Of a stretch of 64,000 bases of DNA, positions 1 through 64,000 are shown one piece after another. The DNA lies in NCBI RefSeq assembly GCF_002369955.1, contig NZ_AP014564.1, positions 556,893 to 620,892 on the forward strand, in the 5' to 3' direction. The notes beneath the pieces were generated by a model. That model was not told the DNA's origin, made no database searches, and saw nothing but the letters and a program-made list of their open reading frames with translations. The position numbers and the translations under genes are program-made. How positions within the stretch are numbered: position 1 is the first letter of the stretch; each line of letters starts with the position of its first letter. The stretch comes from Ichthyobacterium seriolicida (lineage in GTDB: Bacteria; Bacteroidota; Bacteroidia; Flavobacteriales; Ichthyobacteriaceae).

Positions 1-1223
1 CTGTGTCTACTAGTTTTATATTTACAGAGTTATTTGATATCCCAACGATCTCTTTTGGTAAACTTAGATTTAATTTTGCTCAGGTAGGAGCACCAGCTCC
101 ATATGATGTTCTCATAGATAGATATAAGCCTTTAGATAATAACGGAGGTATAGTATCTACTCTTAGTTCTAGAAAAATGAATCCAGATTTAAAGTCTGAA
201 AAAACTACTTCTTACGAGCTTGGACTAAATTTAAAGTTTTTAGAAAACAAATTAGGTTTAGACATAGCTGCTTATCACAATTTATCTAAAGATCAAATTA
301 CTTATCTCCCAGTGAGTCTTTCAACTGGTTATGCTGATAAAGTTATCAATGGTGGAGAAATATTAAATAAGGGATTAGAAGTCTCTCTAAACACCTATAA
401 TGTGAATATGGGTTCTGTCTCATGGTCTTCTTCTATAAATTGGTCTTTGAATAGAAGTCTTGTAGTTTCTCTGGCAGATGGTGTAGATAAAATTACTCTT
501 GGAAGTTATCAAAGTAATGTAACTGTACGAGCTACTCCAGGTGAGCCTTATGGTCTTATATACGGTTCGGATTATGTCTACGATAAAAACGGTCAAAAGA
601 TAGTACACAGTGAAGGTCCTAATAAAGGCAAATATAAAGTCACTAAAACTGTAAACGAGGTGATAGGTGATCAAAATCCTGATTGGTTATTGGGATGGTC
701 TAATACTTTTTCTTACAAAGGGGTCTCATTGTCTTTTTTGTTTGATTATCAACAAGGAGGGGATATTTACTCTTTAGATATGTGGTATGGAATGGGTACT
801 GGGCTGTATGAAGAGACAGACTTCCTTAATGACAAAGGCAATCCTGTTAGAAATAAGATAGCAGACGGAGGGGGGTATATCAACCCTGGGGTAAATGAAG
901 ATGGCGCAAAAAATGAAACTAGGCTTGAAGTTGTAGACGGGACTTTTGGATATGGCGCTTTGCCTCATAAAGCTTTTGTATATGATGCTTCATATATAAA
1001 GTTAAGAGAGGTTTCCCTGTCGTATAAATTACCTGTAGACAACATTAAATTTTTAAAGGGAGTGACATTAGGTATAGTAGGTTCTAACTTGTGGATATTG
1101 CATAAAAACCTACCTCATGCTGACCCTGAATCTGCCTTAGGTGCTGGTAATGTACAAGGTATTAGTATCGGATCATTGCCTGTGTTTAGGGAATTAGCTT
1201 TCAATGTTAAAATTAATTTTTAA
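1..1223 (+). CDS. SusC/RagA-type TonB-dependent receptor, C-terminal part (cut by window edge)
   Basis: The frame is open from the first bases and codes about 406 residues of the C-terminal half of an outer-membrane beta-barrel. It has alternating aromatic/polar strands, the SusC-type stretch KLREVSLSYKLP, and a last strand ending ELAFNVKINF with a terminal Phe, as expected for BamA-inserted barrels. The N-terminal plug and TonB box lie outside the window. In this family the receptor pairs with a SusD lipoprotein to import oligosaccharides or peptides with TonB energy. The next gene is a SusD homologue starting 55 bp after the stop, so the two form one operon. The substrate cannot be told, since no hydrolase genes accompany the pair inside the window. 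Confidence 0.9.
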   Translation, partial: VSTSFIFTELFDIPTISFGKLRFNFAQVGAPAPYDVLIDRYKPLDNNGGIVSTLSSRKMNPDLKSEKTTSYELGLNLKFLENKLGLDIAAYHNLSKDQITYLPVSLSTGYADKVINGGEILNKGLEVSLNTYNVNMGSVSWSSSINWSLNRSLVVSLADGVDKITLGSYQSNVTVRATPGEPYGLIYGSDYVYDKNGQKIVHSEGPNKGKYKVTKTVNEVIGDQNPDWLLGWSNTFSYKGVSLSFLFDYQQGGDIYSLDMWYGMGTGLYEETDFLNDKGNPVRNKIADGGGYINPGVNEDGAKNETRLEVVDGTFGYGALPHKAFVYDASYIKLREVSLSYKLPVDNIKFLKGVTLGIVGSNLWILHKNLPHADPESALGAGNVQGISIGSLPVFRELAFNVKINF

Positions 1224-2877: not shown

Positions 2878-4321
2878 TTATGATACCTTTTTTCGAAGAT
2901 TGTGTGCTAAAGCATGTAATCCAAATTCTAATTCTGCTTTTTTCATCCTTTTATGTGTAAATCTCTCGAAATTTCGGCTTGATTTGATATATCCGAAGAC
3001 AGGTCCCACATCTGATGTTCTTTTTTTTACGTCTATTTTGACCTTCATTACTCTTGAGCCTATTACGCATTATATTCTTTTGTCTTTCAAGATGATCGTT
3101 ACGTTCTATCCTTCTATTGTACTTTGATTTATGGCAAAGCCCTCGTAGTGAACATTCTTGACAATTTTGTGCCTCATATACGCTCAAGGTTTGATTGTAA
3201 CCTGATTTTGTTGTATTCTCTCGTTCATAGATTTTCTCTATTCTTTGGCCCACATAGGACATATAGTAATCCCCTTGTTCATTATAATGAAGATTATCTC
3301 TATGAAAGTCAACTTTAGAGATTTTCTTTTGATTAGATTTATAAGTCCGTTGCTCTTTATCAAAAGTGTTATACTTGACATAACCACTTATTTCAACATC
3401 TTCTAGGTATTGGCATTTTTTTTCACTCCCATAACCAGCATCTGCACTAAGGTATTTTGGAAATGATTGATTTTGAACATTATACCCTGGTTTTAATTGA
3501 CCATTGAGTATATGATTTTCTTTCATGCGCATAAAGGTAGCGTCAGGATACGTTTTACTATAACTGTTACGCTATGATATCATTTGTTCTTGTTGCTGAT
3601 ACTTTTCAAGGTTGATTGGGAAATTCTTTTCCATATAGCGTGCCTTGGCTTTGGCTTTACTGCTTGCTTTGGTATTACCTTTGAGTATCTTATTGATTTT
3701 AGTAGCCGTCTTTTCTACTTTCTCTTTATCAATCTTGCTAAAGTCTTGAGGAGTAGGATCTAGATCTTCTTCATCTGCGATACTCTGAGCATACTGCCAC
3801 ATATTTTCCAGTTGCTCGGACATTTTCTCTTTACGAGTCTTAATCGCATTACCCCAAACAAAAGTATAACGTCCAGCCATGGATTCAATTTTAGTCCCAT
3901 CTGTAAAGACTTCCTTGAGTGTTAACAAGGCTTCATCTGCCAATAACAAGACCACTTGTTTGAAAATATCTTTAAAAATGGTCTTGAGTTTTTTACTACG
4001 GAAACGAGCAATGGTATTGTGATCTACTACCTGTTGAGCTGAAAGCCACATATAAATGATGTTTTCACGCATTGCTTTCTCAATTTTTCTTGAAGAATAG
4101 GTGTTATCCATGTAGGCATATACCATTACTTTGAGCATCATCTTAGGATGGTAGCTTGGTTTCCCTTCTTTACTGTACTCAGAAATCAACAAATTGAGGT
4201 TTAGTTGTTCAATCACACCATTGACAACTCGCACAGGATGATCTGCAGGAATCAATTCTTCGATACTAGGCGGAAAAAGCCAATTTTGTCATTGGTTGTA
4301 GTCCCTGAAATTTGTATTCAT
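2878..4321 (-). pseudogene. IS1182-family transposase, broken by two stops and a frameshift
   Basis: Reading on the minus strand from ATG 4321, codon 11 is TGA. The same frame then runs through a DUF772-like DNA-binding N-terminus (PADHPVRVVNGVIEQL, SSRKIEKAMREN, VDHNTIARFRSKKL) to a TAG at 3574-3572. It continues in the same frame with a DDE-type C-terminal region (YLSADAGYGSEKKCQYLE, Cys-rich CQECSLRGLC) until a frameshift near 2960-3000. After the shift the family end AELEFGLHALAHNLRKKVS is readable down to the stop at 2878. All the parts are present, so this is recent inactivation. The alternative of recoding is unlikely because TGA, TAG and a frameshift all occur in one gene. Confidence 0.85.
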
Positions 4322-17092: not shown

Positions 17093-17115
17093 GTAAAACA
17101 TTAAACAAACCCTTA

Positions 17116-17205
17116 GACTCCGTAAATTAAAACTCTATAATCAAATTTAATCTTCCTCTAGACTCCGTAAATTAAAACTCTATAATCAAATTTAATCTTC
17201 CTCAG
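17116..17205. repeat. Tandem duplication, 2 x 45 bp, across the sdhB stop codon
   Basis: 17116-17160 and 17161-17205 are identical over the first 43 positions of each 45-bp unit. The unit includes the last codons and stop of sdhB (EED-stop), so a second, non-functional copy of the gene end lies just downstream. This fits a replication slippage event, and its near-perfect identity means it is recent. Confidence 0.9.
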
Positions 17206-17947
17206 AAGAAATAAAGTGCTTTAAGTACTCCCTATTCATTATAGCTATATTTTCTAGAGATATTCCCTTTGGACATTCAATCTCACAAGATCCAGTATTA
17301 GTACAGTTCCCAAATCCTTCTAAATCCATCTTCTCAACCATTTTTAATACCCTTTGCTTAGCTTCTACCTTACCCTGAGGTAAAAGAGAAAATTGAGACA
17401 CTTTAGCCGACACATACAACATAGCAGAAGAGTTCTTACAGGTAGCTACACAAGCTCCACACCCTATACAAGTAGCAGCATCAAAGGCCTTGTCCGCATC
17501 GCTCTTAGGAATAGGTATGGCGTTGGCATCTGAAGTATTACCAGAAGTGTTGACCGAAATAAAACCACCAGATGCCATAATCCTATCAAAAGCTGTCCTG
17601 TCTACTACTAAATCTTTTACCACAGGGAAAGCTCTAGCCCTCCAAGGTTCTATATATATGACGTCACCATCTTTGAATCTCCTCATATGCAATTGACAGG
17701 TGGTGATAAGCTCATCAGGACCATGTGGTCTCCCATTTATATACAGAGAACAAGCTCCACATATTCCCTCTCTACAATCGTGATCAAAAGCTATTGGATC
17801 ATCGCCTTTGTTTACTAATTCTTCATTTAGTACATCTAACATCTCTAGAAAAGACATCTCTGGAGATACATCAGGCATATTGTAATCGACAGACCTGCCT
17901 TTATCCTCAGCGTCTTTCTGCCTCCATATTTTTAATGTTAAATTCAT
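17192..17947 (-). CDS. sdhB: Succinate dehydrogenase/fumarate reductase iron-sulfur subunit
   Basis: The 251-residue subunit passes electrons from FAD to the membrane quinone site. The [2Fe-2S] ligands are in [18 protein letters not shown] (residues about 57-74). The [4Fe-4S] and [3Fe-4S] ligands are in [13 protein letters not shown] and in [11 protein letters not shown]. The length matches the Bacteroidota complex II type (class B). It follows sdhA by 21 bp. Its stop codon lies inside a recent 45-bp tandem duplication that leaves the protein unaltered. Confidence 0.96.
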
Positions 17948-21323: not shown

Positions 21324-21331
21324 TAAATTTG
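21324..21331 (+). promoter_or_regulatory. -7 promoter element (TAAATTTG) of recR
   Basis: TAAATTTG is an exact match to TAnnTTTG, 36 bp before the recR ATG. Because the start of transcription would lie near 21337, it also rules out the upstream TTG at 21329 as the start codon. Confidence 0.55.
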
Positions 21332-21367
21332 TGCGTTTACATCTTTTATCAATACGTTTTATTTAAT

Positions 21368-21973
21368 ATGAACCTTTCATCTAAGTTATTGGAAGACGCT
21401 GTGAATAAAATAAGTTTATTGCCTGGAATAGGAAGTAAAACGGCCACTAGATTAGTATTACATCTACTTCGTAATCCTAAAGAGTTAGGATTAGGAATAT
21501 CATCATCCATAGAAAAATTAGTAGAGAATATAAATTATTGCAAATACTGTCATAATATTTCAGACACAGAGATATGTCTAATATGCAAAAATCCTGACAG
21601 GGATAAATCTGTAGTCTGTGTAGTTGAAGATATAAGAGATGTGATAGCCATAGAATCGACAGAACAGTTCTTGGGGGTATATCACGTTTTAGGAGGGAAG
21701 ATTTCACCTATGGATGGGATAAATGCAGAAGATCTAAAAATAGATAGTTTAGAAAAAAAAGTTAAATCTGGAACTATAAAGGAAGTAATATTTGCTATCA
21801 GCAGTACTGTAGAGGGAGATACTACATCTTTTTACATATACAAAAAGATAAAAGAGGCCTCTGTAAATATTACTGTAATAGCCAGGGGAATCTCCGTTGG
21901 CGATGAACTAGAATACACAGATGAACACACCTTAGCTCGATCTATTCAGGAGAGAGTGCCGTATTGTCTATAG
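21368..21973 (+). CDS. recR: Recombination mediator protein RecR
   Basis: The protein has 201 residues from the ATG at 21368; an upstream TTG in frame lies inside the promoter and is rejected. RecR with RecO loads RecA on gapped DNA. The N-terminal helix-hairpin-helix (LLPGIGSKTATRLVLHLL) is followed by a C4 zinc finger (CKYCHNIS...CLIC). A Toprim domain comes next, starting VCVVEDIRDVIAIE with its acidic GGKISPMDGI and EVIFAISSTVEGDTTSFYI segments. The C-terminal Walker-like ARGISVGDELEYTDEHTL completes the family pattern. The gene is apparently monocistronic. Confidence 0.96.
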   Translation: MNLSSKLLEDAVNKISLLPGIGSKTATRLVLHLLRNPKELGLGISSSIEKLVENINYCKYCHNISDTEICLICKNPDRDKSVVCVVEDIRDVIAIESTEQFLGVYHVLGGKISPMDGINAEDLKIDSLEKKVKSGTIKEVIFAISSTVEGDTTSFYIYKKIKEASVNITVIARGISVGDELEYTDEHTLARSIQERVPYCL

Positions 21974-22195
21974 ATCTAATTTCGGTTATTTTAAATTATT
22001 TCGTAGGACAGTTTGTGAACTCACCTTAGAATATGGATTATTGATTTTTCAGAAAAATAATTCAATCATTAGTAGGATATTAAAACTACATTAGTAGGCT
22101 AAAGGGGATTTTATGGATATTACATATGATCCCTTTGCTGTGTTGAAGTCATTGAGATTTCAATTGTTGAAGTTTAACGTATTAATTATTGAATT

Positions 22196-25135
22196 ATGAA
22201 AAAAAATAATCTAAAAGAGGTATTGTTATTTCTATCGTCCTTTCTTCTTATTGTTTCGTGTGAGAAGAATAAAGTAATTCCTGAAGATGAGAATCTTGAA
22301 AGTGCAATTCCTAAAGAGATAAAGAGTTTTAAACTAGAACCATCTAATAACGAAGAAAAAATAGGAGCTGATGATATAGAGGCTCAAGTCGTTGAATCCA
22401 ATGGACAAAAAGTATATATTTTACTATTGCCTAATGGTGTAAAATCTGAAACTAAAGAATTTACTCCTACGATTACAACATCTGAAAATACTACTATAAG
22501 TCCTGAGAGTGGTTCTCCTCAGCAGTTAGGTAATATTAGTATGGTTGAAGGCGTTTTTGATTTATCTCAATCAGGAATAGAGTACACGGTTAAGTCTGAT
22601 GAAGATCAGTCGATTAAAAAATACAGAGTTATAGCGGTTAGGGCTCCCGATGGTGTTGATTCTGCTGAAACTTCAATTACTGTTGAAAGTAATAATGATA
22701 AACTTTTAACTGATGCTATTCCAACTGTTGATAATTTAAATCAAACAATAACATTTGGTTCTTTAGAAGGTCCAAATCTAAAAAATGACATTGTTGAAGA
22801 TGGTATTACATTGGGTATAAAAGTGAGTTTAACTCGAATAACTACGGAAGAGGGTGAAGATATTTATAATAAAATCCCTTCTCCAACTATTCCAACTAGG
22901 GTTTCTTTTAAGAAGAAGGGAGAAAATGGAGATGATCTAAATACTTATGAATCTATTATTCCAATTACATATGAGATAGAGGGAGAAACTTTTGTAAAAA
23001 ATTATAAAGCAATCATTTATAAAAAGTCTGATGCAAAAGTTAGAGAAGAACTTAAATCTTCTATCACTGAAGCTAAAACTAAAGCTGAGGAAGCTAAGGA
23101 AACCGCTACTGAAGCTAAAGCTACTGCTGCTGCAGCTAAAGCTACTGCTATTGCGGCCAGTGATCAGACTGCTAAAGCAATTGCTGAAAATGCTGAGACT
23201 TCTGCTGACACTGCTATTTCTAATGCTGATGAAGTAGTTAGAAAGGCTGAAACTACTGCTAACAGTGCTGAAACAGCCAGCATTAGTGATCTTAAAGAAA
23301 AGACTACTGAAGCTACTACTAAAGCTGAAAAAGCCAAGCAAGATGCTGATGCCGCTAAGGATCTAGCTGAAAAAGCTAAGCAAGGTGCTGAGAGTTCGAA
23401 AGTTACTGCTGCTCAAAAAGCTGCTACTGATGCCTTAGCTGCTGCTAATACTGCTAAGCAAAAAGCTAATAAAGCTAAATCTGATGCTGATGCTGCTTCT
23501 CAGAAAGCTACAGAAGCTAAAAATAGCGTTGCTATCAATGTAGATGTTAATCCTCTATCTGCTATTCTTGAAGCTGCTGAAAAAGCTAAGCAAGATGCTG
23601 AGACTGCTAAAGGAGAAGCTCAAGCTGCTAAGACTGCTGCTGAGACTGCTAAAAGAGAAGCTGAAGCTGCTAAGAGCGCTGTTGAGGCTATTACTGCTAA
23701 ATCTGGAGAAACTAATACTGCTGCTCAGACCGCAAATGAGGCAGTTTCTAAGGCTAACGAAGCTGTTCAAATTGCTACTGCCGCTGAGTCTACTGCTGAT
23801 GAGGCTAGCAGAGTAGCTGATGAGGCTGTTAAAGTTATTTCTCAGAAAGCTGCTGAGATTGCTGCCGCTAAAGCTCAAGAAGCTCAAACCGCTTTTGCTG
23901 AAGCTGGAAAAGCTAACACTGCTGCTCAAACCGCTTCTACTGAGGCTGGAGAAGCCCAGAAAACAGCTGAAGGGGCCGCTACTAAGGCTAAAGCCTTAGC
24001 TGCCTCTATAACTGACACTACTCTTAAGACTGCTGTTGCTACCGCTACTTCTGAAGCTGCAAAAGCTAAGACTGCTGCTGATAATGCAGCTACTAAGGCT
24101 GGAGAAGCTAAAACCGCTGCTGATAATGCTAATGCGGCTAAAACTGCTGCTGAGGCTGCTCTTGCTAAGGCTGGAGAAGCTAATACTGCTGAAGCTATTG
24201 GATATGCTAAGACCGCCGTTGATGAAGCTGCTAAGGCTGTTGCTGCTCAAAAAGAAGCTGAGGCTGCTAAAGAAGAAGCTGAAGCTGCTAAAACTAAAGC
24301 TGAAACCGCTAAAGCTGCTGCTGAGGCTGCTCTTAAAAAGGTTCTTTTAGCTGTTGCTCAGGCTACGGCTCAGGCTTCTAAGGAAGCTGCTGAAGCTTCT
24401 GTTGAAGAGTCCAAAAAAGTTCAATCTGCTGCTCAATCTTCTGCTGAAGAGTCGAAAAAAGTTCAAGCTGCTGCTGAAGCAGTTAAGGGTGCTGTTGAAT
24501 CTTTAGCTTCTGCTATAAGTGGAGATACTGAAGCTGCTAAGACCAAGGCCACTGATGCTTTGGGTAAAGCTACTACTGCTCAGACTGCTGCTGAAAATGC
24601 TAAGAATCTAGCTGATGCAGCTCAGTCTGCCGCTCAGACTGCTAAGAATTTAGCTGATACTGCTCACATTGCTGCTCAGACTGCTCTTCAAAAGGCTGAA
24701 GCAGCCGTAAATACGGCTACTGAGGCTCAGGCTGCTGTTGATGCCGCTAAGGAAGCTGCTGAGAAAGCTCAGGAAGCTGCTCAGAAAGCTGGATTAGCTC
24801 AGACTGCTGCTCAAACTGCTGTTGATAAAGCTAATGAAGCTAAGCAAGCTGCTGAAGCTGCTAAAACTGCCATTGATGAGGCTAAGGGTGCTATTGAGGC
24901 CATTAACCCTGCTTCTGCTGATGCTACTAAAAGTGCTACTGAAAAAGCTGACGCAGCTGTTCAAGCTGCTAATAATGCTAAAAGTGCTGCTGATGCCGCT
25001 AAGTCAGCTGCTGATAAAGCTTACACTGCTGCTGATGAGGCTCTTAAAAAGGCTAATGAAGCTCAGACTGCTTCTGAGGCTGCCTTTGAAGCAGCCAAAA
25101 AAGCTGCTGATGCTGTCACTAAAGCTGCTGCATAG
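22196..25135 (+). CDS. Giant alanine-rich coiled-coil lipoprotein
   Basis: The 979-residue protein has a lipoprotein signal (MKKNNLKEVLLFLSSFLLIVSC, Cys22). Residues about 40-280 form two beta-rich modules: one resembles DUF5018-like lipoprotein domains (YTVKSDEDQSIKKYRVIAVRA), and a second follows. From about 285 to the end it is almost pure Ala/Lys/Glu/Thr in heptad-like AEAAKxAA periods, an uninterrupted helix of about 690 residues, about 100 nm if fully extended. Nearly all Ala codons are GCT, so the DNA itself is repetitive and prone to length change. A stalk or a periplasm-spanning tether (TolA- or alanine-zipper-like) is plausible, but no function is known. Relatives are at 31047 and, dead, at 62414. 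Confidence 0.75.
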   Translation: MKKNNLKEVLLFLSSFLLIVSCEKNKVIPEDENLESAIPKEIKSFKLEPSNNEEKIGADDIEAQVVESNGQKVYILLLPNGVKSETKEFTPTITTSENTTISPESGSPQQLGNISMVEGVFDLSQSGIEYTVKSDEDQSIKKYRVIAVRAPDGVDSAETSITVESNNDKLLTDAIPTVDNLNQTITFGSLEGPNLKNDIVEDGITLGIKVSLTRITTEEGEDIYNKIPSPTIPTRVSFKKKGENGDDLNTYESIIPITYEIEGETFVKNYKAIIYKKSDAKVREELKSSITEAKTKAEEAKETATEAKATAAAAKATAIAASDQTAKAIAENAETSADTAISNADEVVRKAETTANSAETASISDLKEKTTEATTKAEKAKQDADAAKDLAEKAKQGAESSKVTAAQKAATDALAAANTAKQKANKAKSDADAASQKATEAKNSVAINVDVNPLSAILEAAEKAKQDAETAKGEAQAAKTAAETAKREAEAAKSAVEAITAKSGETNTAAQTANEAVSKANEAVQIATAAESTADEASRVADEAVKVISQKAAEIAAAKAQEAQTAFAEAGKANTAAQTASTEAGEAQKTAEGAATKAKALAASITDTTLKTAVATATSEAAKAKTAADNAATKAGEAKTAADNANAAKTAAEAALAKAGEANTAEAIGYAKTAVDEAAKAVAAQKEAEAAKEEAEAAKTKAETAKAAAEAALKKVLLAVAQATAQASKEAAEASVEESKKVQSAAQSSAEESKKVQAAAEAVKGAVESLASAISGDTEAAKTKATDALGKATTAQTAAENAKNLADAAQSAAQTAKNLADTAHIAAQTALQKAEAAVNTATEAQAAVDAAKEAAEKAQEAAQKAGLAQTAAQTAVDKANEAKQAAEAAKTAIDEAKGAIEAINPASADATKSATEKADAAVQAANNAKSAADAAKSAADKAYTAADEALKKANEAQTASEAAFEAAKKAADAVTKAAA

Positions 25136-25413: not shown

Positions 25414-26400
25414 ATGGCAAAGAGAGGGGTAATTGTGTTAATATGCATTATTACATTGGAGGGATGTGTGTCTTCTGGAATATACGAAAGTCTTAAGAGC
25501 AAACACAAGTCTTCCGAAAAAGAAAACAGAATGCTTTTAGAGGAAAACAACAACCTCTTAGATCATAAGATGGAACTGACTCATAAATTAGGAGATCTCA
25601 AAAAAAAGTATGAAAACGAAAAAATAGAAGGGGAAAGACTAAAAAACGAATTATCTCTACTAAAGAATAGTAAAAATAAATTACAGCAATCTTATAATCT
25701 GCTTTTTGATAATAATAAGTCTCTTTTGGATCAAGACACCAAAAAGACTAAGAGACTCCTGTCGGAGCTAGAAAAGTTACAACTCAGCCTTAACGACAAG
25801 GAAGCTTCTCTATCTAAAGAAAAGGAAGATATCAAGCAATTGAGATTTAAACTCAAAGATCGTGACAGTAAGGTAGATGAGTTGGAAAGAAAAATAAAGG
25901 AAAAAGAAGCTGCTGTTACCAAACTAAAAAAAGCTGTTTCTGGAGCTCTATCTTTTTTTGAAAATAAGGGACTCAGTGTAGAGGAGAGAAACGGAAGGGT
26001 CTATATTTCTATGGAAAACAAATTATTGTTTAAATCTGGAAGTTCAGATATAGACAGTGCTGGAGAGGTAGCTATATCTAATTTAGCTGAAGTTTTATCA
26101 GAAAATCCAAATATAGAAATAGTAGTAGAAGGGCACACTGATGATGTTCCCTACAGACAGAGTGAAAGTGATTTGATAAAAGATAATTGGGATCTCTCAG
26201 TAATGAGGGCTACTTCTTTTATTAGATCTCTTTTGAAAAACTCAAAAATATCTCCAAGTAAAGTTTCAGCAGCTGGTAGAGGAAAGTACTTGCCTCTAGT
26301 GGAGAACAAGTCTTTGGAAAACAGAGCTAAGAACAGACGTATAGAGATTATCTTAACTCCAGATATGTCTAAACTGGAGGATATTTTAGATAATTTTTAA
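25414..26400 (+). CDS. OmpA-family lipoprotein with coiled-coil stalk
   Basis: The 328-residue protein has a lipoprotein signal (lipid Cys18 in TLEGC). A long coiled coil runs over residues about 28-175 (KSKHKSSEKENRMLLEENNN onward). The C-terminal OmpA-like peptidoglycan-binding domain spans about 195-315. Its hallmarks are LLFKSGSSDIDSAGEVAI, IEIVVEGHTDDVPY and the ligand-binding NRAKNRRIEIIL, with Asp and Arg residues that hold diaminopimelate. Such Pal-like proteins tether the outer membrane to the cell wall. It follows the giant coiled-coil lipoprotein but has a terminator before it, so it is a separate unit. Its exact role is unknown. Confidence 0.88.
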   Translation: MAKRGVIVLICIITLEGCVSSGIYESLKSKHKSSEKENRMLLEENNNLLDHKMELTHKLGDLKKKYENEKIEGERLKNELSLLKNSKNKLQQSYNLLFDNNKSLLDQDTKKTKRLLSELEKLQLSLNDKEASLSKEKEDIKQLRFKLKDRDSKVDELERKIKEKEAAVTKLKKAVSGALSFFENKGLSVEERNGRVYISMENKLLFKSGSSDIDSAGEVAISNLAEVLSENPNIEIVVEGHTDDVPYRQSESDLIKDNWDLSVMRATSFIRSLLKNSKISPSKVSAAGRGKYLPLVENKSLENRAKNRRIEIILTPDMSKLEDILDNF

Positions 26401-31046: not shown

Positions 31047-31898
31047 ATGACCATGTATTCAAACTTTAGTAAATTTATTTTAGGAGTGCTTCTTGCAAGT
31101 ATTACATTTTCTTGCATAAAGAAAAAATATATTACCGATAAACCAACCTCTAATAAGAGTTTAAAGGATACATCTTCTCCCCAATCTAAATCTGATTATA
31201 TTCTCGAGAAACTTCGAGCTTTTGTTGACGCCACTATTGAGGCAGATATTAGGGCTACTAAAGCTAGGACTAATGCAACTGTTGCAACTGCTTCAGCTAA
31301 GCCTAATATTTCTGATGCTCCAGCGTTTTCTATTTTTATATATTTCTGTGATAGTTATTCTACTAGAGAGATTACTAATTCTACTAAGGCCACTATCGCT
31401 AAAGTATCTGAGGCTAGAAAAGCTACTGAAATTGCTGAGGATAAAATTAATACTTCTAAAATTGCTATTGCCGCTGCTAAAATTGCTGCATATACCGCTC
31501 ATGATACGTATAAGGTTGAATCTAATACTAAGGAAATAGAGTCTAAAATTGCTATAGCTAAAATTAGCATTGACAAAGCTGCTGTTGCAGTTGATAGCGC
31601 TATTATTGCCGTCAATAATGCCGTTATTACCTCTAAAATTGCTTGTGCTGATGTTGAAACTGCTTTTACTTCTGCTAAAGTTGATATAAACTCCTCTAAA
31701 GCTGACCCTAGCGTTAAGACTACTACAAATGATTATATAAAATCTTACATCAATACAGCCAAGGGTATTATTGTCGCTAACAAAGCCACTCTTCTTACCT
31801 CCGAAGCTACTAAAAGCACCATTAAAAACGCTCAAATTAACATGAGGTATATCCAAAATGCTTTTGCTAAAAAAAAAGCTAGGTTCAAGACAACTTAA
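31047..31898 (+). CDS. Ala/Ile-rich coiled-coil lipoprotein, 3' end replaced by an IS1595 fragment
   Basis: The 283-residue protein has a lipoprotein signal (Cys23 in SITFSC). After about 40 residues it becomes Ala/Ile/Thr/Lys-rich with heptad-like periods (KIAIAAAKIAAYTAHDTYK, KIAIAKISIDKAAVAVDSAI), related in style to the giant lipoprotein at 22196, and ends in NAFAKKKARFKTT. The last codons and the stop (31880-31898) are IS1595 end sequence, so the natural C-terminus has been lost. It is not clear whether the truncated protein is made. Function is unknown. Confidence 0.6.
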   Translation: MTMYSNFSKFILGVLLASITFSCIKKKYITDKPTSNKSLKDTSSPQSKSDYILEKLRAFVDATIEADIRATKARTNATVATASAKPNISDAPAFSIFIYFCDSYSTREITNSTKATIAKVSEARKATEIAEDKINTSKIAIAAAKIAAYTAHDTYKVESNTKEIESKIAIAKISIDKAAVAVDSAIIAVNNAVITSKIACADVETAFTSAKVDINSSKADPSVKTTTNDYIKSYINTAKGIIVANKATLLTSEATKSTIKNAQINMRYIQNAFAKKKARFKTT

Positions 31899-32013: not shown

Positions 32014-33198
32014 ATGCAAGGTACAAAACACAAAATATTCAGTATAATACCAAATAGCGCTCTATTACTCTTTGCAAGCCTCTTTTTTTTATTTACCTCT
32101 TGTAAAAAGGAACAAACTATAAGTGATACTTCTGATAATACTGGATTAACTGATACTTCTGATAATACTGGATTAAAAAAGTTTATCACAAAATGGGAGA
32201 TTACAGATGGAAATAAGACTATCAAACTACCTATATATTCTGGTGGAACTTATAAATTTGATGTAGATTGGGGAGATGGAATAAAACAAGAAGTTACTTC
32301 TCATGATGACTTGGATGCTTCGCATACATATGCAGTAGCAGGTGAAAAAACTGTAACTATTACAGGAAAAATAGAAGGATTTAACTTCGGAAAGGTTTCA
32401 GATAGCAAGGATAAAATATTAGAGATATCAGATTGGGGTGAGTTGAAGTTAGGGAATAGTGTTGAATATACTGGAAAAGATGGTAATAATAACGATATTA
32501 CTGTGAATTTAGGATGTTTTCAAGAATGTACTAAGTTAGTAACTTTACCTTCAGAATCCCCTAACTTAGAGAAAGTTACTAATATGGTATCGATGTTTGC
32601 AGGGGCTACATCTTTCAACGGTGATATAAGTAAGTGGAATGTATCTAATGTTACTAATATGACATTGATGTTTGCAGGAGCTACATCTTTCAACGGTGAT
32701 ATAAGTAAGTGGAATGTATCTAATGTTACTGATATGACAGGTATGTTTGGAGGTGCTACATCTTTCAACGGTGATATAAGTAAGTGGAATGTATCTAATG
32801 TTACTAATATGGTATCGATGTTTGCAGGAGCTACATCTTTCAACGGTGATATAAGTAAGTGGAATGTATCTAATGTTACTAATATGGCATCGATGTTTGC
32901 AACTACTACATCTTTCAACGGTGATATAAGTAAGTGGAATGTATCTAATGTAACTGGTATGGCAACTATGTTTACAGGCGCTACATCTTTCAATCAAAAT
33001 ATAGGCAGTTGGAATATTTCTAATGTTACGGATACGTTTTTGATGATGTTTCATGAAGCTAGCGCCTTTTGTCAAGATTTAAGCTCTTGGAAAGTGCCAA
33101 GTGGTACTAGCATAGAACTGATGTTTCAAGATTCAGGAATGCCTTATAGTGATTCTCTTTCTGATAAGAGTAAGCATCCTACAGAAAAATCCGAATAG
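32014..33198 (+). CDS. DUF285 (BspA-like) repeat lipoprotein
   Basis: The 394-residue protein has a lipoprotein signal with lipid Cys30 (FFLFTSC), a short duplicated linker (SDTSDNTGLTDTSDNTGL), and a PKD-like domain at about 55-120 (FDVDWGDGIKQ, SHTYAVAGEKTVTITG). A cysteine-containing cap LGCFQECTKLVTLPSE precedes six 25-residue repeats of the pattern MFaGATSFNGDISKWNVSNVT (residues 194-343) and a diverged last one. These repeats are the DUF285 type used by surface proteins of Mycoplasma and Bacteroidota, often in adhesion to host or partner cells. The first five repeats are almost identical in DNA. The paralogue is at 36158. Confidence 0.88.
   Translation: MQGTKHKIFSIIPNSALLLFASLFFLFTSCKKEQTISDTSDNTGLTDTSDNTGLKKFITKWEITDGNKTIKLPIYSGGTYKFDVDWGDGIKQEVTSHDDLDASHTYAVAGEKTVTITGKIEGFNFGKVSDSKDKILEISDWGELKLGNSVEYTGKDGNNNDITVNLGCFQECTKLVTLPSESPNLEKVTNMVSMFAGATSFNGDISKWNVSNVTNMTLMFAGATSFNGDISKWNVSNVTDMTGMFGGATSFNGDISKWNVSNVTNMVSMFAGATSFNGDISKWNVSNVTNMASMFATTTSFNGDISKWNVSNVTGMATMFTGATSFNQNIGSWNISNVTDTFLMMFHEASAFCQDLSSWKVPSGTSIELMFQDSGMPYSDSLSDKSKHPTEKSE
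32593..33042 (+). repeat. Six tandem 75-bp coding repeats (DUF285)
   Basis: Units start at 32593, 32668, 32743, 32818, 32893 and 32968. The first five are nearly identical; the sixth has the NQNIGSWN variant typical of the paralogue at 36158. Units differ mainly in the last three codons. Confidence 0.92.
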
Positions 33199-36070: not shown

Positions 36071-36220
36071 TTAAAAAAATAACATTAATTTAGCTATCTA
36101 CTCAACTCATGTAGTAAAAGAGTATCCTACTTATTGTTGCATTTTAAATCTAAAAAAGTGAAAAAAATGTTTAGAAATTTGTTAGTAATGCTAACATCAG
36201 GTGTTATTGTTTTCTCTTGT
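36071..36220 (+). repeat. Leader/signal-peptide cassette shared with 29259-29405
   Basis: Upstream bases (AACATTAATTTAG onward) and 21 codons are closely similar to those of the 29343 gene. The start codon is GTG (36158) where the other copy has ATG. Confidence 0.75.
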
Positions 36221-37351
36221 GGAAAAGAAACTGATAGTGAAAAAGAGACTGATAAAAATAAAATAAGTGATACCTCTGGAAAAAAGTTTATTTCAAAATG
36301 GAATGTTAATGGAGATACCAAAATAGTATTACCTATATATCAGAGAGGGAAATACGACTTCACTGTAGATTGGGGAGATAATACAGGAAAGCAAAAAGTT
36401 ACTTCTTATAATGACTCTAATGCAAATCACACATATACAACAGGGGGTGAAAAAACTATAACTATTACAGGAAAAATAGAAGGTTTTAACTTCGGAAAGG
36501 TTCCACATAGCAAGGATAAAATATTAGGTATATCAGATTGGGGTGATCTGAAATTAGGGAATAGTGTTCCGTATACTATAAGACATAATAATGAAGATAT
36601 TACCCTAAATTTAGGATGTTTTCAAGGATGTACCAAGTTAGTGACTTTACCTGTAGAAGCACCTAATTTAGAAGGGATTACTAGTATAGCCAGTATGTTT
36701 TTTGGAGCAATAACTTTTAATCAAGACTTAAGTAATTGGGACGTATCTAAGGTTACTGGTATGAATTGGATGTTTTGCTCTGCTACAGATTTCAATAGTG
36801 ATATAAGCAAGTGGATTGTATCTAATGTTACGGATATGAGATTTATGTTTAAAAGTGCTACATCTTTCAACGGTGATATAAGTAATTGGAATGTTTCTAA
36901 GGTTACCAATATGGAATCGATGTTTTATGACGCTAAATCTTTCAATCAAAATATAGGCGATTGGACTGTATCTAATGTAACTGATATGAAAAGTATGTTT
37001 TATGACGCTACAGCTTTCAATCAAAATATAGGCGGTTGGACTGTATCTAATGTAACTGATATGAGAGGTATGTTTTATGGTGCTAACTATTTCGATCAAA
37101 ATATAGGCAGTTGGAATGTTTCTAATGTTACAGATATGAGCTTTATGTTTTTAAACGCTAAATCTTTCAATCAGAATATAGGCAGTTGGAATGTTTCTAA
37201 TGTTACGGATATGAATTCGATGTTTAGAGGTGCTACAAGGTTCAATCAGAATATTAGTGGATGGCAAATACATAACAGTAATGCAATGACTGATATGTTT
37301 CATGGAGCTACATCAATGACCGAAGACTATAAACCTAAATCAGGAAACTAG
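36158..37351 (+). CDS. DUF285 (BspA-like) repeat lipoprotein with borrowed leader
   Basis: The product has 397 residues from GTG 36158, or 394 from ATG 36167. The signal peptide (MFRNLLVMLTSGVIVFSC, lipid Cys21 from the GTG) is that of the unrelated lipoprotein at 29343. The mature part is paralogous to 32014: a PKD-like domain (FTVDWGDN, NHTYTTGGEKTITITG), the KIEGFNFGKV junction, the LGCFQGCTKLVTLP cap, then eight 25-residue DUF285 repeats plus a partial ninth. Repeats here are more diverged than in 32014, mostly the NQNIGSWNVSNVTDM type. It is probably a surface adhesin-like protein. No terminator is evident before the IS256 fragment at 37386. Confidence 0.86.
   Translation: MKKMFRNLLVMLTSGVIVFSCGKETDSEKETDKNKISDTSGKKFISKWNVNGDTKIVLPIYQRGKYDFTVDWGDNTGKQKVTSYNDSNANHTYTTGGEKTITITGKIEGFNFGKVPHSKDKILGISDWGDLKLGNSVPYTIRHNNEDITLNLGCFQGCTKLVTLPVEAPNLEGITSIASMFFGAITFNQDLSNWDVSKVTGMNWMFCSATDFNSDISKWIVSNVTDMRFMFKSATSFNGDISNWNVSKVTNMESMFYDAKSFNQNIGDWTVSNVTDMKSMFYDATAFNQNIGGWTVSNVTDMRGMFYGANYFDQNIGSWNVSNVTDMSFMFLNAKSFNQNIGSWNVSNVTDMNSMFRGATRFNQNISGWQIHNSNAMTDMFHGATSMTEDYKPKSGN
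36695..37294 (+). repeat. Eight 75-bp coding repeats (DUF285), diverged
   Basis: Units begin at the ATG of each MF start: 36695, 36770, 36845, 36920, 36995, 37070, 37145 and 37220, with a partial ninth at 37295. The exact 75-bp period has no indels. Confidence 0.9.
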
Positions 37352-37754: not shown

Positions 37755-39097
37755 GACACTATCCTGTAAAGTGTGTAAAGTTTATATTTAGGAAAAAAAA
37801 TCCTAGATATTTTTTAAAAAAAACTAATTAAAACTTTATACAAATGAAAAAAGAAGGATTTATTAAAAGATGAATTCTTAAAACAATTCAAAACAGGAGA
37901 AGATCTCGATGTCATTTCTAAAAGATATTCAGAGACGAGGTATTGAAAAGATTCTAGAAGGGGAATTAGATTCACATTTGGATTATTCTAAATATGAGCA
38001 ATCAAAGAATACAAATTTCCGCAATGGCTATTCTACAAAAAATGTTAGGACATCATTAGGAGAGAGCAAGATTAAAGTTCCAAGAGATAGAGATTCCTCT
38101 TTTAATCCTATGTTAATCCCTAAACGCAAAAATATGGCAGAAGGATTAGAAAATATAATCATCAGTTTTTATGCCAAGGGGATGAATAATTCAGACATAG
38201 AGGATCAAATACAAGAGTTATACAATTTTGATATTTCTACATCTACCATATCCCGTATCACAGATAGAGTGACAAATGATATCATAGCCTGGCAAAATAG
38301 ACCTCTAGAGCCTGTATATTTGATAGTTTGGATGGACGCTATAGTATTCAAGGTTAGGGAGAATTCCAAAGTGATCAACAAGAGTATGTACATCGCTATT
38401 GGCCTTGGTAGAGATGGAAAAAAAGAAGTATTAGGCTTATGGTTAGGGAAGAATGAATCCTCTGCATTTTGGATGAGCGTATTAACAGATCTAAAGGCTC
38501 GAGGAGTTGAGGATATACTTATCACAGCTACGGATAATTTAAATGGCTTTACCCAAACTATAAAAAATGTATTTCCTGAATCTACAAACCAAATATGTGT
38601 AGTACATCAAATCAGGAATTCAAGCAGATATGTAGTATGTAAGGATAAAAAGACGTTTTTTAATGACATGAAATCAAATATACAATTCCCCTACTAAACA
38701 ATCAGCTGAGGCTGCCCTAAATGACTTTGCAAAAACATGGGAATCTAAGTATTCCTATGCTGTTAAAAGCTGGCGAGATAACTGGGAGGAACTGTCTGCT
38801 TTTTATGAGTTTCCCGTAGAAATCAGGAAAATTATTTACACGACCAATTTGATTGAAAACCTCAATGGAAAAATCAGAAAGTATACCAAAAACAAATTGT
38901 CATTCCCAACTGATGATGCTGTTATGAAATCTACTTTTTTAGCTCTGAGGGAGGCTACAAAAAAATGGTCTAAACCCATACCAAATTGGGGAATAATTTT
39001 GAATCAATTTTTAACTATTTTTGACCAAAGAGTTCGACTATGAATAAAAACAAAAAAATATGTCATTTTTTAGTTACACACTTTACGCGATAGTGTC
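37755..39097 (+). mobile_element. IS256-family insertion sequence, degenerate full-length copy
   Basis: The length is 1343 bp. The left terminal repeat GACACTATCCTGTAAAGTGT and right repeat (reversed) GACACTATCGCGTAAAGTGT are complete. The transposase is frameshifted. The right border cuts an IS1595 end. No matching target duplication is seen at the outer borders, consistent with the composite history. Confidence 0.88.
37844..39043 (+). pseudogene. IS256-family (mutator-type) transposase, frameshifted
   Basis: ATG 37844 runs only nine codons before a shift. The main part reads from 37909 (FLKDIQRRGIEKILEGELDS) through the catalytic Asp of PVYLIVWMDAIVFKVRE and the second Asp of ILITATDNLNGFTQTIKNVF to a shift at about 38685. 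The last part ([40 protein letters not shown] with the catalytic Glu) continues in another frame to 39043. All DDE residues are present, so inactivation is by two frameshifts only. Confidence 0.88.
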
Positions 39098-39235: not shown

Positions 39236-40838
39236 CCTGGATTATTCACAGTCATATTAAAATAGATTAAACCTGATATTTTTTTCATTAACTTTTTTAC
39301 TAATCAAAAAAAACTCGTCTTCTTTGTAGTTTTTTTGCACCATTTTTTAACACGACAATGATCTTTTTTAGTGTTTTTACGTGGTTTTTTAACGACAGAA
39401 CGTAACTATCCCAAGGTTATTCATTTCACAAATAAACAACCGCTACTGGGTAATAATTTCCCGAAATAAACCTTGTAAACAAAAGATTTAGATAACTGGT
39501 AATAGATTCGCCTTTTGGTAATTTTAATCGTTGCTCTTACCTTCAAAAGATAAGTTCTAATTGAACTGATTAACCATTTTTTTGCTACTTCAAATCTTGT
39601 TTTCTTTATCTTCTGTTTCAGTAATAAAAACATTTCATAGGCAAGACTACTTATCATAAGTCGAAAAAAATTAGCAAGAAAACTATGATTTGACAAACGA
39701 TCAGAAAAACACATATTTTTAACTTCTTTTATTCTATTTTCACTTGAATCACCTCTTTTAACATAAAAGTCAAAGTAAATTTTTCTAGCATCCTTTTGGG
39801 GAATATTACTAGAAAAATGCCTTATGTTCATACCTAATCCAGTACTCTCAACTTTAGAATAGCACTGTTGAGGCTTGTGCCAACTCTTGGCTTTGTACGT
39901 AAAACTCATAAAATGTTGGTGCTTCTCTCCCTGATCTAAATACATTTTTTTTACAGCATTTTTTGACCGAGATACCTTTCTTTTTAAAACTTTATTGCTC
40001 GCTATGCCTGTAACATATAGTAAATCAAAATCATCTACTAATTGGTAAAAAGCGGCGCAGCTAAAGCCGCTATCACTTCTAATAATTATTTCCATCTCTG
40101 GGTAACTCTCACGTATTTTGATAATTATTCGCTTTAAAATACTCACATACCATTTATTGGAATGACTGTTTCCTGGGCGGAGTACAGGAAGAATAATCTG
40201 TCGTGGTGTCTCCATCATGAAAAAATAGTTCATTGTACATGAATTGACCATAATAACCATTAAACATTGACAATTGTTGACTGCCATGAGTTGGATCATC
40301 GGTTGAATCTACGTCAATAACTATTTTCTTGCGATCAGATAAACTTGAAACATATTTGTATAACCACGCATAACAAAACTTAAAAACAGCCTGTTTGTCA
40401 AAGCTATTCTCAAATCTTGATATAGTAGGTTGAGAGGCCAAATCACCTTGAAGAACATCTTTTAATAAAGGATCATTCTGTAAATGATTAACATCATTGG
40501 CGTCTTCATAGCCTAACATGATCATATAAACCCTTTGTTTTAACTGTTGCTTTCTGGTATAAGTAACAAATCTAGAGTCTCGGGCATCAGGCAAAAGTTT
40601 ACTGTAATAATCAATCAATTTATGATCTCGTTCTAGTTTTTCAAGCATGATTAAGGATCCATCAGAGCTAATTTCTGATGATGAAAAAGTTAACTCAACA
40701 GATTTTCTCCCTCTATAAAATAATGTGTTTTTATTCCTCATTTTTGGGCTATATCTAAAGTGGTGAATTTTTGGTTAAAACCTTCTAAAATTAACACTTT
40801 ATGCCTAATATTAACAATATATCTATGAATAATCTGGG
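39236..40838 (-). mobile_element. IS1380-family insertion sequence, copy 1
   Basis: The length is 1603 bp, with inverted ends CCTGGATTATTCA and, reversed, CCCAGATTATTCA, flanked by TTAA on both sides (39232-39235 and 40839-40842), which looks like a target duplication. It holds one frameshifted transposase gene on the minus strand. Confidence 0.88.
39421..40741 (-). pseudogene. IS1380-family transposase, single frameshift
   Basis: From ATG 40741 the frame gives an N-terminal region (TLFYRGRKSVELTFSSSE), the first catalytic segment KKIVIDVDSTDDPTHGSQQL and FNGYYGQFMYNELFFHDGDT. Near 40190 the frame shifts by one base. The continuation reads ILPVLRPGNSHSNKWYV, IIIRSDSGFSCAAFYQLVDD and KRGDSSENRIKEVKNMCFSD with the catalytic Glu, down to 39421. 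Family motifs DxDxTDDPTHG and LRPGN are clear. Only one lesion is seen, so the copy died recently or uses frameshifting; the former is more likely. Confidence 0.88.
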
Positions 40839-63045: not shown

Positions 63046-64000
63046 CCCGCATTATTCATAGTCATACTAAAATAGATTAGACGTGATATTTTTTCCTTAA
63101 CTTTTTTACTAATCGAAGAGAACTCATCTTCTTTGTCGTTTTTTTGCACCTTTTTTTAGGATGACAATGCTCTTTTTTAGTGTTTTTACATGGTTTTTTA
63201 ACGACAAGGCGTAACTATCCCAAGGTTGTTCATTTCACAAATAAACAACCGTTACTGGGTAATAATTTCCCGAAATAAACCCTTGTAAACAAAAGATTTA
63301 GATAGCTGATAATAGATTCGCCTTTTGGTAATTTTAATCGTTGCTCCTACCTTGAGAAGATAGGTTCTAATCGAACTGATTAACCATTTTTTTGCTACTT
63401 CAAATCTTGTTTTCTTTATCTTCTGTTTCAGTAATAAAAACATTTCATAGGCAAGACTACTCATCATAAGTCGAAAAAAATTAGCAAGAAAACTATGATT
63501 TGACAAACGATCAGAAAAACACATATTTTTAACTTCTTTTATTCTATTTTCACTTGAATCACCTCTTTTCACATAAAAGTCAAAGTAAATTTCTCTAGCA
63601 TCCTTTTGGGGAAGATTACTAGAAAAATGCCTTATGTTCATCCCTAATCCTGTACTCTCAACTTTAGAATAGCACTGTTGAGGCTTGTGCCAACTCTTGG
63701 CTTTGTACGTAAAACTCATAAAATGTTGGTGCTTCTCTCCCTGATCTAAATACATTTTTTTTACAGCATTTTTTGACCAAGATACCTTTCTTTTTAAAAC
63801 TTCATTGCTCGCTATGCCTGTCACATATAGTAAATCAAAATCATCTACTAATTGGTAAAAAGGAGCGCAACTAAAGCCGCTATCACTTCTAATAATTATT
63901 TCCATCTCTGGGTGACTCTCACGTATTTTGATAATTATTCGCTTTAAAATACTCACATACCATTTATTAGAATGACTATTTCCTGGGCGGAGTACAGGAA
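63046..64000 (-). mobile_element. IS1380-family insertion sequence, copy 2 (cut by window edge)
   Basis: The low end CCCGCATTATTCATAGTCAT lies after a TTAA (63042-63045). The sequence then follows copy 1 (39236 on) with scattered differences up to the window edge. The transposase 5' part lies beyond the window. Confidence 0.88.
63252..64000 (-). CDS. IS1380-family transposase, C-terminal part (cut by window edge)
   Basis: The minus-strand frame is open to the window edge through LRPGNSHSNKWYVSILK. It continues with IIIRSDSGFSCAPFYQLVDD, KRGDSSENRIKEVKNMCF and LANFFRLMMSSLAYEMFLL. Compared with copy 1 it has one extra C near 63281, so its last residues are GLFREIITQ instead of VYFGKLLPSSGCLFVK; which end is ancestral is not clear. 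Whether this copy also has the mid-gene frameshift cannot be seen, because that point lies at or beyond the edge. Confidence 0.8.
   Translation of the reverse strand, partial: PVLRPGNSHSNKWYVSILKRIIIKIRESHPEMEIIIRSDSGFSCAPFYQLVDDFDLLYVTGIASNEVLKRKVSWSKNAVKKMYLDQGEKHQHFMSFTYKAKSWHKPQQCYSKVESTGLGMNIRHFSSNLPQKDAREIYFDFYVKRGDSSENRIKEVKNMCFSDRLSNHSFLANFFRLMMSSLAYEMFLLLKQKIKKTRFEVAKKWLISSIRTYLLKVGATIKITKRRIYYQLSKSFVYKGLFREIITQ

Follow-up and report, generated by a model that had tools for sequence, protein, structure and literature searches.

A lineage-specific family of very long alanine-rich lipoproteins with predicted coiled-coil tails in Ichthyobacterium seriolicida

What a 979-residue lipoprotein with a tail of alanine-rich heptads is, how it varies and what it may do in a fish pathogen is the question raised by this locus of Ichthyobacterium seriolicida. 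Strain JBKA-6T causes bacterial haemolytic jaundice of yellowtail, and gliding and type IX secretion genes are present in this pathogen (PMC5331501). Published work on antibody-mediated killing of I. seriolicida is cited in a further article (PMC9804302). The stretch of DNA analysed (the window) is 64,000 nucleotides long, and positions prefixed C1 refer to the whole genome, a single contig of 1,921,407 bases.

The gene, its lipid anchor and its beta head

The gene lies between a recR-like gene (21329-21973) and a gene for an OmpA-domain lipoprotein (25414-26400). It is probably monocistronic, and its promoter is probably held in the upstream sequence that it shares with paralogue p232 (Table 1). 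This identity continues from the upstream 203 bp into the ORF for another 319 nt, and a nearly identical terminator sits behind p232. The canonical Bacteroidetes promoter (TTG at -33) was absent from every family copy checked, and a -7-like box at about -42 was seen in some array copies only. Elsewhere in the window, transposase-like ORFs, part of them fragmentary, lie at 2951-4255, 37909-38697, 39421-40741, and 63252-63956, and similar ORFs were found again in other genome stretches read.

Table 1. Features of the alanine-coil lipoprotein gene and positions of its intact paralogues
Feature	Position	Strand	Evidence or detail
Giant Ala-coil lipoprotein gene, 979 aa	22196..25135	+	ORF with ATG start; one of ten intact paralogues
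Upstream sequence identical to paralogue p232	21993..22195	+	203 bp without any difference; abrupt end at 21992/21993
Signal peptide and lipobox, lipidated Cys22	22196..22261	+	MKKNNLKEVLLFLSSFLLIVSC; S21, C22, and K24 invariant in 14 relatives
Beta module 1, residues ~38-150, DUF5018-like	22307..22645	+	AlphaFold strands 42-149; profile match to DUF5018 protein
Beta module 2, residues ~155-278	22658..23029	+	AlphaFold strands 160-276; conserved in head alignment
Ala-heptad tail, residues 279-979	23030..25132	+	Autocorrelation, register fit, AlphaFold helices
Predicted tail helices 1-5	residues 279-320, 324-357, 363-448, 454-503, 508-603		AlphaFold
Predicted tail helices 6-10	residues 609-661, 664-732, 745-838, 844-901, 908-978		AlphaFold
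Intrinsic terminator directly 3' of the stop codon	25175..25213	+	Inverted repeat AACCCATTACAGT/ACTGTAACGGGTT, then T-run
Intact giant copies	C1: 579 (window gene), 232, 658, 1727, 1729, 1733, 1739, 1742, 1745, 1848 kb

The lipid anchor and two beta modules described in an earlier note on this DNA were both recovered, the anchor as the lipobox I19-V20-S21-C22 and the modules as AlphaFold predictions. The signal peptide has the positively charged n-region, hydrophobic stretch, and lipobox Cys of a signal peptidase II substrate. Cys22 is followed by E-K-N-K; its Lys at +3 is invariant and agrees with the export signal C-X-K-(D/E)2 of Capnocytophaga, but there is no acidic pair at +4/+5. The S-D-D type was the other signal used for comparison. 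No C-terminal type IX secretion sorting domain was matched in NCBIfam or Pfam, and the C-terminus is Ala coil. C-termini in the family read AITIPQS or variants of it, and KAAA in the window protein.

Two beta modules are predicted in the AlphaFold model of the head (mean pLDDT 77.5). Searched alone, the head matched no Pfam or NCBIfam family over the cut-off, and PF16410 (DUF5018) was not reached. The same genome encodes a sister family of ~1,100-aa lipoproteins (C1:792-833 kb) that matches PF16410 at E 2e-17, and in a DUF5018 protein from this sister family the first module aligns with the head profile at E 5.7e-8. Through these paralogous proteins, the kinship of the head with DUF5018 is remote but real, as judged by sequence profiles. 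With Foldseek, the head model matched chain G in a structure of the levan utilisome from Bacteroides (E 2.5e-7, prob 1.00), a chain which we take to be probably a surface glycan-binding protein; the Bacteroides lipoprotein structures 3hbz and 4ftd were also matched, with TM-scores for these head matches of only 0.2-0.3. The window protein shares with DUF5018 lipoproteins of Bacteroidota the plan of a lipoprotein with beta modules, but it falls below PF16410, has only two modules, and carries an Ala-coil tail in addition. Across the 1.92 Mb genome, 122 DUF5018 module matches were found at E <= 0.001, a remarkable lipoprotein expansion. These modules often lie in tandem arrays of lipoprotein ORFs of ~900-1,500 aa (for example at C1:120-142, 193-210, 483-500, 790-833, 910-965, and 1004-1040 kb).

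Searches covering over 700 other Bacteroidota genomes yielded no full homologue. Searches of 60 relatives, 396 phylum genomes, and 398 order genomes returned only signal-peptide or first-module matches (E 1e-5 to 1e-2), and the head had no match in genome contigs of other organisms or in plasmids. A profile of the tail, run on 198 phylum genomes, matched this genome only. PDB sequences gave no significant match and PHROGs gave none. The earlier note had recognised no known family of this length, and no characterised family with this architecture turned up in Pfam, NCBIfam, PHROGs, or PDB sequences. We call the family lineage-specific, the lineage being Ichthyobacteriaceae, from which one genome is known.

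The alanine-heptad tail

Residues 286-979 (~694 in all) are 36% Ala, 12% Lys, 10.5% Glu, and 10% Thr, with two Pro and neither Cys nor Trp. Autocorrelation of the tail is dominated by lags 7 and 14 (0.32 vs. a mean of 0.18). A hendecad (11-residue) periodicity as in LEA proteins was weak, and 7 was preferred. The Viterbi register score was -1477, compared to -1609 +/- 7 for shuffles (about 19 SD above); shuffles are the proper control because the register itself is fitted to Ala. In the fitted register, Ala occupies 67% of a positions, 77% of d positions, and 10-15% of b, e, and f positions. The fit contains 12 breaks, with a mean segment of 53 residues.

The full-length AlphaFold model (pTM 0.40, mean pLDDT 66.6, tail mostly 60-90) divides the tail into ten helices of 34-96 residues with short turns between them. 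Turn-like islands (SLTSSE, AITDTSSDA, AALTS) recur at similar positions in the array copies described below. The model thus speaks less for one straight ~100-nm rod than for segmented helices, possibly packed side by side; it describes a single chain and gives no oligomeric state. The earlier note had proposed ~690 residues of near-continuous Ala heptads. The register fit bears out the heptads, but the breaks and the ten helices contradict their continuity, and the segmented prediction does not agree with an unbroken rod that would cross the periplasm several times. Projection from the cell surface, the note's other suggestion, is still plausible. Trypanosome helical-bundle receptors (ISG65, factor H receptor, HpHbR) were among the top Foldseek matches of the full model (prob up to 0.99), at E values of 0.5-1.4 that are not significant, and we read them as generic antiparallel helical bundles. 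The window also encodes a 283-aa lipoprotein with an Ala-rich coil and without the beta head (31047-31898), whose signal peptide is close to that of a 471-aa relative of the giant proteins at C1:1241 kb.

Codon usage in the tail is biased, as had been noticed earlier. GCT makes up 86% of Ala codons in the tail, compared to 54% in window housekeeping genes and 71% in the ribosomal/fusA cluster, the genome stretches on which this comparison rests; the head has 56% GCT, but only nine Ala codons. ACT, GTT, and TCT are also raised in the tail, in the same direction as in ribosomal genes, and its Lys and Glu codons are not ribosomal-like. Both efficient translation and descent from repeated heptads fit the GCT bias. 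No internal exact repeat of at least 45 nt was found in the window gene, so its DNA holds no ready slippage tract, and Tandem Repeats Finder reported only imperfect arrays of 2-5 copies. The proposal that the DNA is itself a slippage-prone repeat was not upheld, as there is no long perfect tract and GCT is also the favored ribosomal codon.

Other repeats were seen in this genome. Within the family, only the gene at C1:1848261-1851575 has a long exact DNA repeat inside it (offset 88 codons), and no other member of the set has a tail as divergent. Two lipoproteins in the window (32014-33198 and 36134-37351) consist of DUF285 (PF03382) repeats of 25 residues each (E 2.6e-76 and 1.2e-98), and their coding DNA is made of 75-bp tandem repeats. 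A perfect 45-bp tandem duplication lies at 17114-17203, beside an sdhB-like gene (17192-17947).

Paralogues with similar heads and divergent tails

Ten intact genes encoding 828-1108 aa (window gene included) and one frameshifted copy form the giant family. These eleven paralogues were missed in the earlier note because the whole genome is needed to see them. The ORFs are 2.5-3.3 kb long; the frameshifted full-length copy (C1:1736586-1739487) loses its frame at about codon 131, within beta module 1, and its remaining frame is open. Six intact copies and the broken one, followed by a short 426-aa copy, form a tandem array in which each unit has its own upstream sequence and its own terminator. 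The same head occurs with shorter coils in proteins of 505 and 471 aa, and in a 482-aa protein (C1:1710640-1712088) a low-complexity tail rich in Ser, Thr, Gln, and Gly takes the place of the Ala coil; thus, the head is a module joined to various tails.

Heads of close pairs are 91-92% identical, compared to 60-71% for their tails, and in array copies identity falls abruptly at the head-tail border (codon ~280). Exact shared tracts of 319, 308, and 240 nt occur in the heads. Between p1733 and p1739, head dS was 0.056 and tail dS 0.305, the latter a value that may be too high if repeats are misaligned; the low head dS is as expected if heads are converted. From the exact tracts and the low head dS, we infer gene conversion of the heads. 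Length differences between relatives come in heptads, in keeping with the expansion and contraction suggested earlier: against its nearest relative, a paralogue whose head is 91% identical, the window gene shows three gaps, of 7, 7, and 14 residues.

Overall tail dN/dS is about 0.8-1.0, a value that is inflated by repeat misalignment and also fits relaxed constraint. In well-aligned tail blocks, pN/pS was 0.28-0.56 at a/d positions vs. 0.69-1.08 at b/c/f positions in four of five pairs (the constraint was not seen in the fifth, p658/p1729), which means that the core is conserved, whereas the outward faces are almost unconstrained. Trees built from heads and from tails are not the same, yet the head clade is not rejected on the tail data (AU p 0.24-0.31), and the trees are thus no proof that heads and tails have been shuffled.

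Possible roles of the family

The protein's anatomy, the number of copies, the conserved head with a variable tail, and the constrained core are established at the level of sequence. Conserved heads with varying coils suggest a family of variable surface antigens, and the multiple copies, the conserved and variable parts, and the recombination tracts found here are those by which such antigens are recognized. Variable coiled-coil surface proteins of the streptococcal M protein type have a conserved anchor-proximal part, a variable coil, and heptad indels. This likeness is an analogy in how the proteins work, with no homology; M protein is anchored at its C-terminus, the opposite polarity, whereas the proteins described here are Gram-negative lipoproteins with an Ala core. 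The reading that we favor, at about an even chance, is that of a lineage-specific, probably surface-exposed, variable coiled-coil lipoprotein family serving as variable antigen, adhesin, or coat protein. The resemblance of the heads to Bacteroides lipoproteins, the self-contained array units, and the fish-pathogenic habit speak for it; the lack of an acidic pair after Cys22, a tail dN/dS that also fits relaxed constraint, the unproven head-tail shuffling, the exceptional pair p658/p1729, and the low TM-scores of the head matches count against it.

In such a family, the N-terminal Cys would anchor the protein to the outer membrane, the two DUF5018-like beta modules would form a conserved base beside the membrane, and the long Ala-core coiled-coil tail would stand beyond this base as the variable part. 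Copies would have arisen through duplication of self-contained units (upstream sequence, ORF, and terminator). Gene conversion would homogenize heads together with signal peptides and upstream sequences, and the tail would drift through heptad gains and losses and substitutions at outward positions, with the a/d core constrained. Contact with the fish host as a surface-exposed variable antigen, adhesin, or coat protein would be the most likely role. Whether the proteins form a Gram-negative coat or fringe for antigenic variation, with converted heads and upstream sequences and with tails that diversify as a library around an unchanging Ala core, is more doubtful, and we propose it only tentatively.

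The lipid anchor and the Ala-core helix are also the plan of Braun lipoprotein (Lpp) and the Alanine_zipper family (PF11839, Lpp/OprI type), which have an N-terminal lipid anchor and Ala at a/d. The proteins might accordingly sit in the inner leaflet of the outer membrane as periplasmic spacers, with the Ala coil crossing the periplasm like Lpp or the Ala-rich helical domain of TolA. The missing canonical surface export signal and the adjoining OmpA-domain lipoprotein gene are consistent with a spacer, as is the trimer formation of Lpp-type Ala-zipper lipoproteins (PMC4137666). Licanantase of Acidithiobacillus thiooxidans, a small lipoprotein with a large alanine-zipper region, forms a trimer by cross-linking (PMC4137666); it is compared here by description and not homology, and unlike the window protein it is short and without beta modules. 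However, the Alanine_zipper match reached only E 0.27 and 12 bits (cut-off 23.1), family C-termini lack the Lpp-like terminal Lys-Arg, and the tail is more than ten times longer than Lpp, which has ~58 residues (PMC4137666). The beta head, register breaks, and turns of a 979-aa protein further separate it from Lpp, ten divergent copies would be unexpected of a spacer, and the heads resemble surface lipoproteins, which together make this role unlikely.

A surface lipoprotein whose beta head binds glycan or another ligand like Bacteroides proteins, with the coil as a stalk or brush, would account for the head matches to the levan utilisome chain and Bacteroides lipoproteins. DUF5018 is found beside the levan-binding DUF4960 domain, but the levan binding is ascribed to DUF4960 and not to DUF5018 (PMC10076258). 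The head also adjoins the membrane anchor instead of standing at the tip, and no array unit lies within a SusC/SusD locus; we consider glycan binding quite improbable. Finally, the tails might be tolerated Ala-rich sequences that grow and shrink with no specific role in a relaxed, largely dispensable repeat family, as the overall tail dN/dS, the frameshifted copy, and the short-tailed copies would allow. Against this, 10 of the 11 long ORFs are intact, the a/d positions are under constraint, array copies share turn motifs at comparable places, and the GCT share of Ala codons exceeds that of ribosomal genes, which speaks for efficient translation. Dispensability is likewise quite improbable in our view.

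The variable surface family that we favor would be of a known kind as a Bacteroidota lipoprotein, and new as a variable multigene family with a very long Ala coil on a DUF5018-like base. If antigenic variation is its purpose, it would represent an M-protein-like strategy of inverted polarity built from that base. Engineered all-Ala variants of Lpp were reported to be unstable (PMC4137666), and the family would offer a natural test of how very long Ala-core coiled coils stay folded. Surface variation in a Gram-negative fish pathogen would be open to the same kind of natural test, and the family is a concrete candidate for the target of fish antibodies in bacterial haemolytic jaundice of yellowtail.
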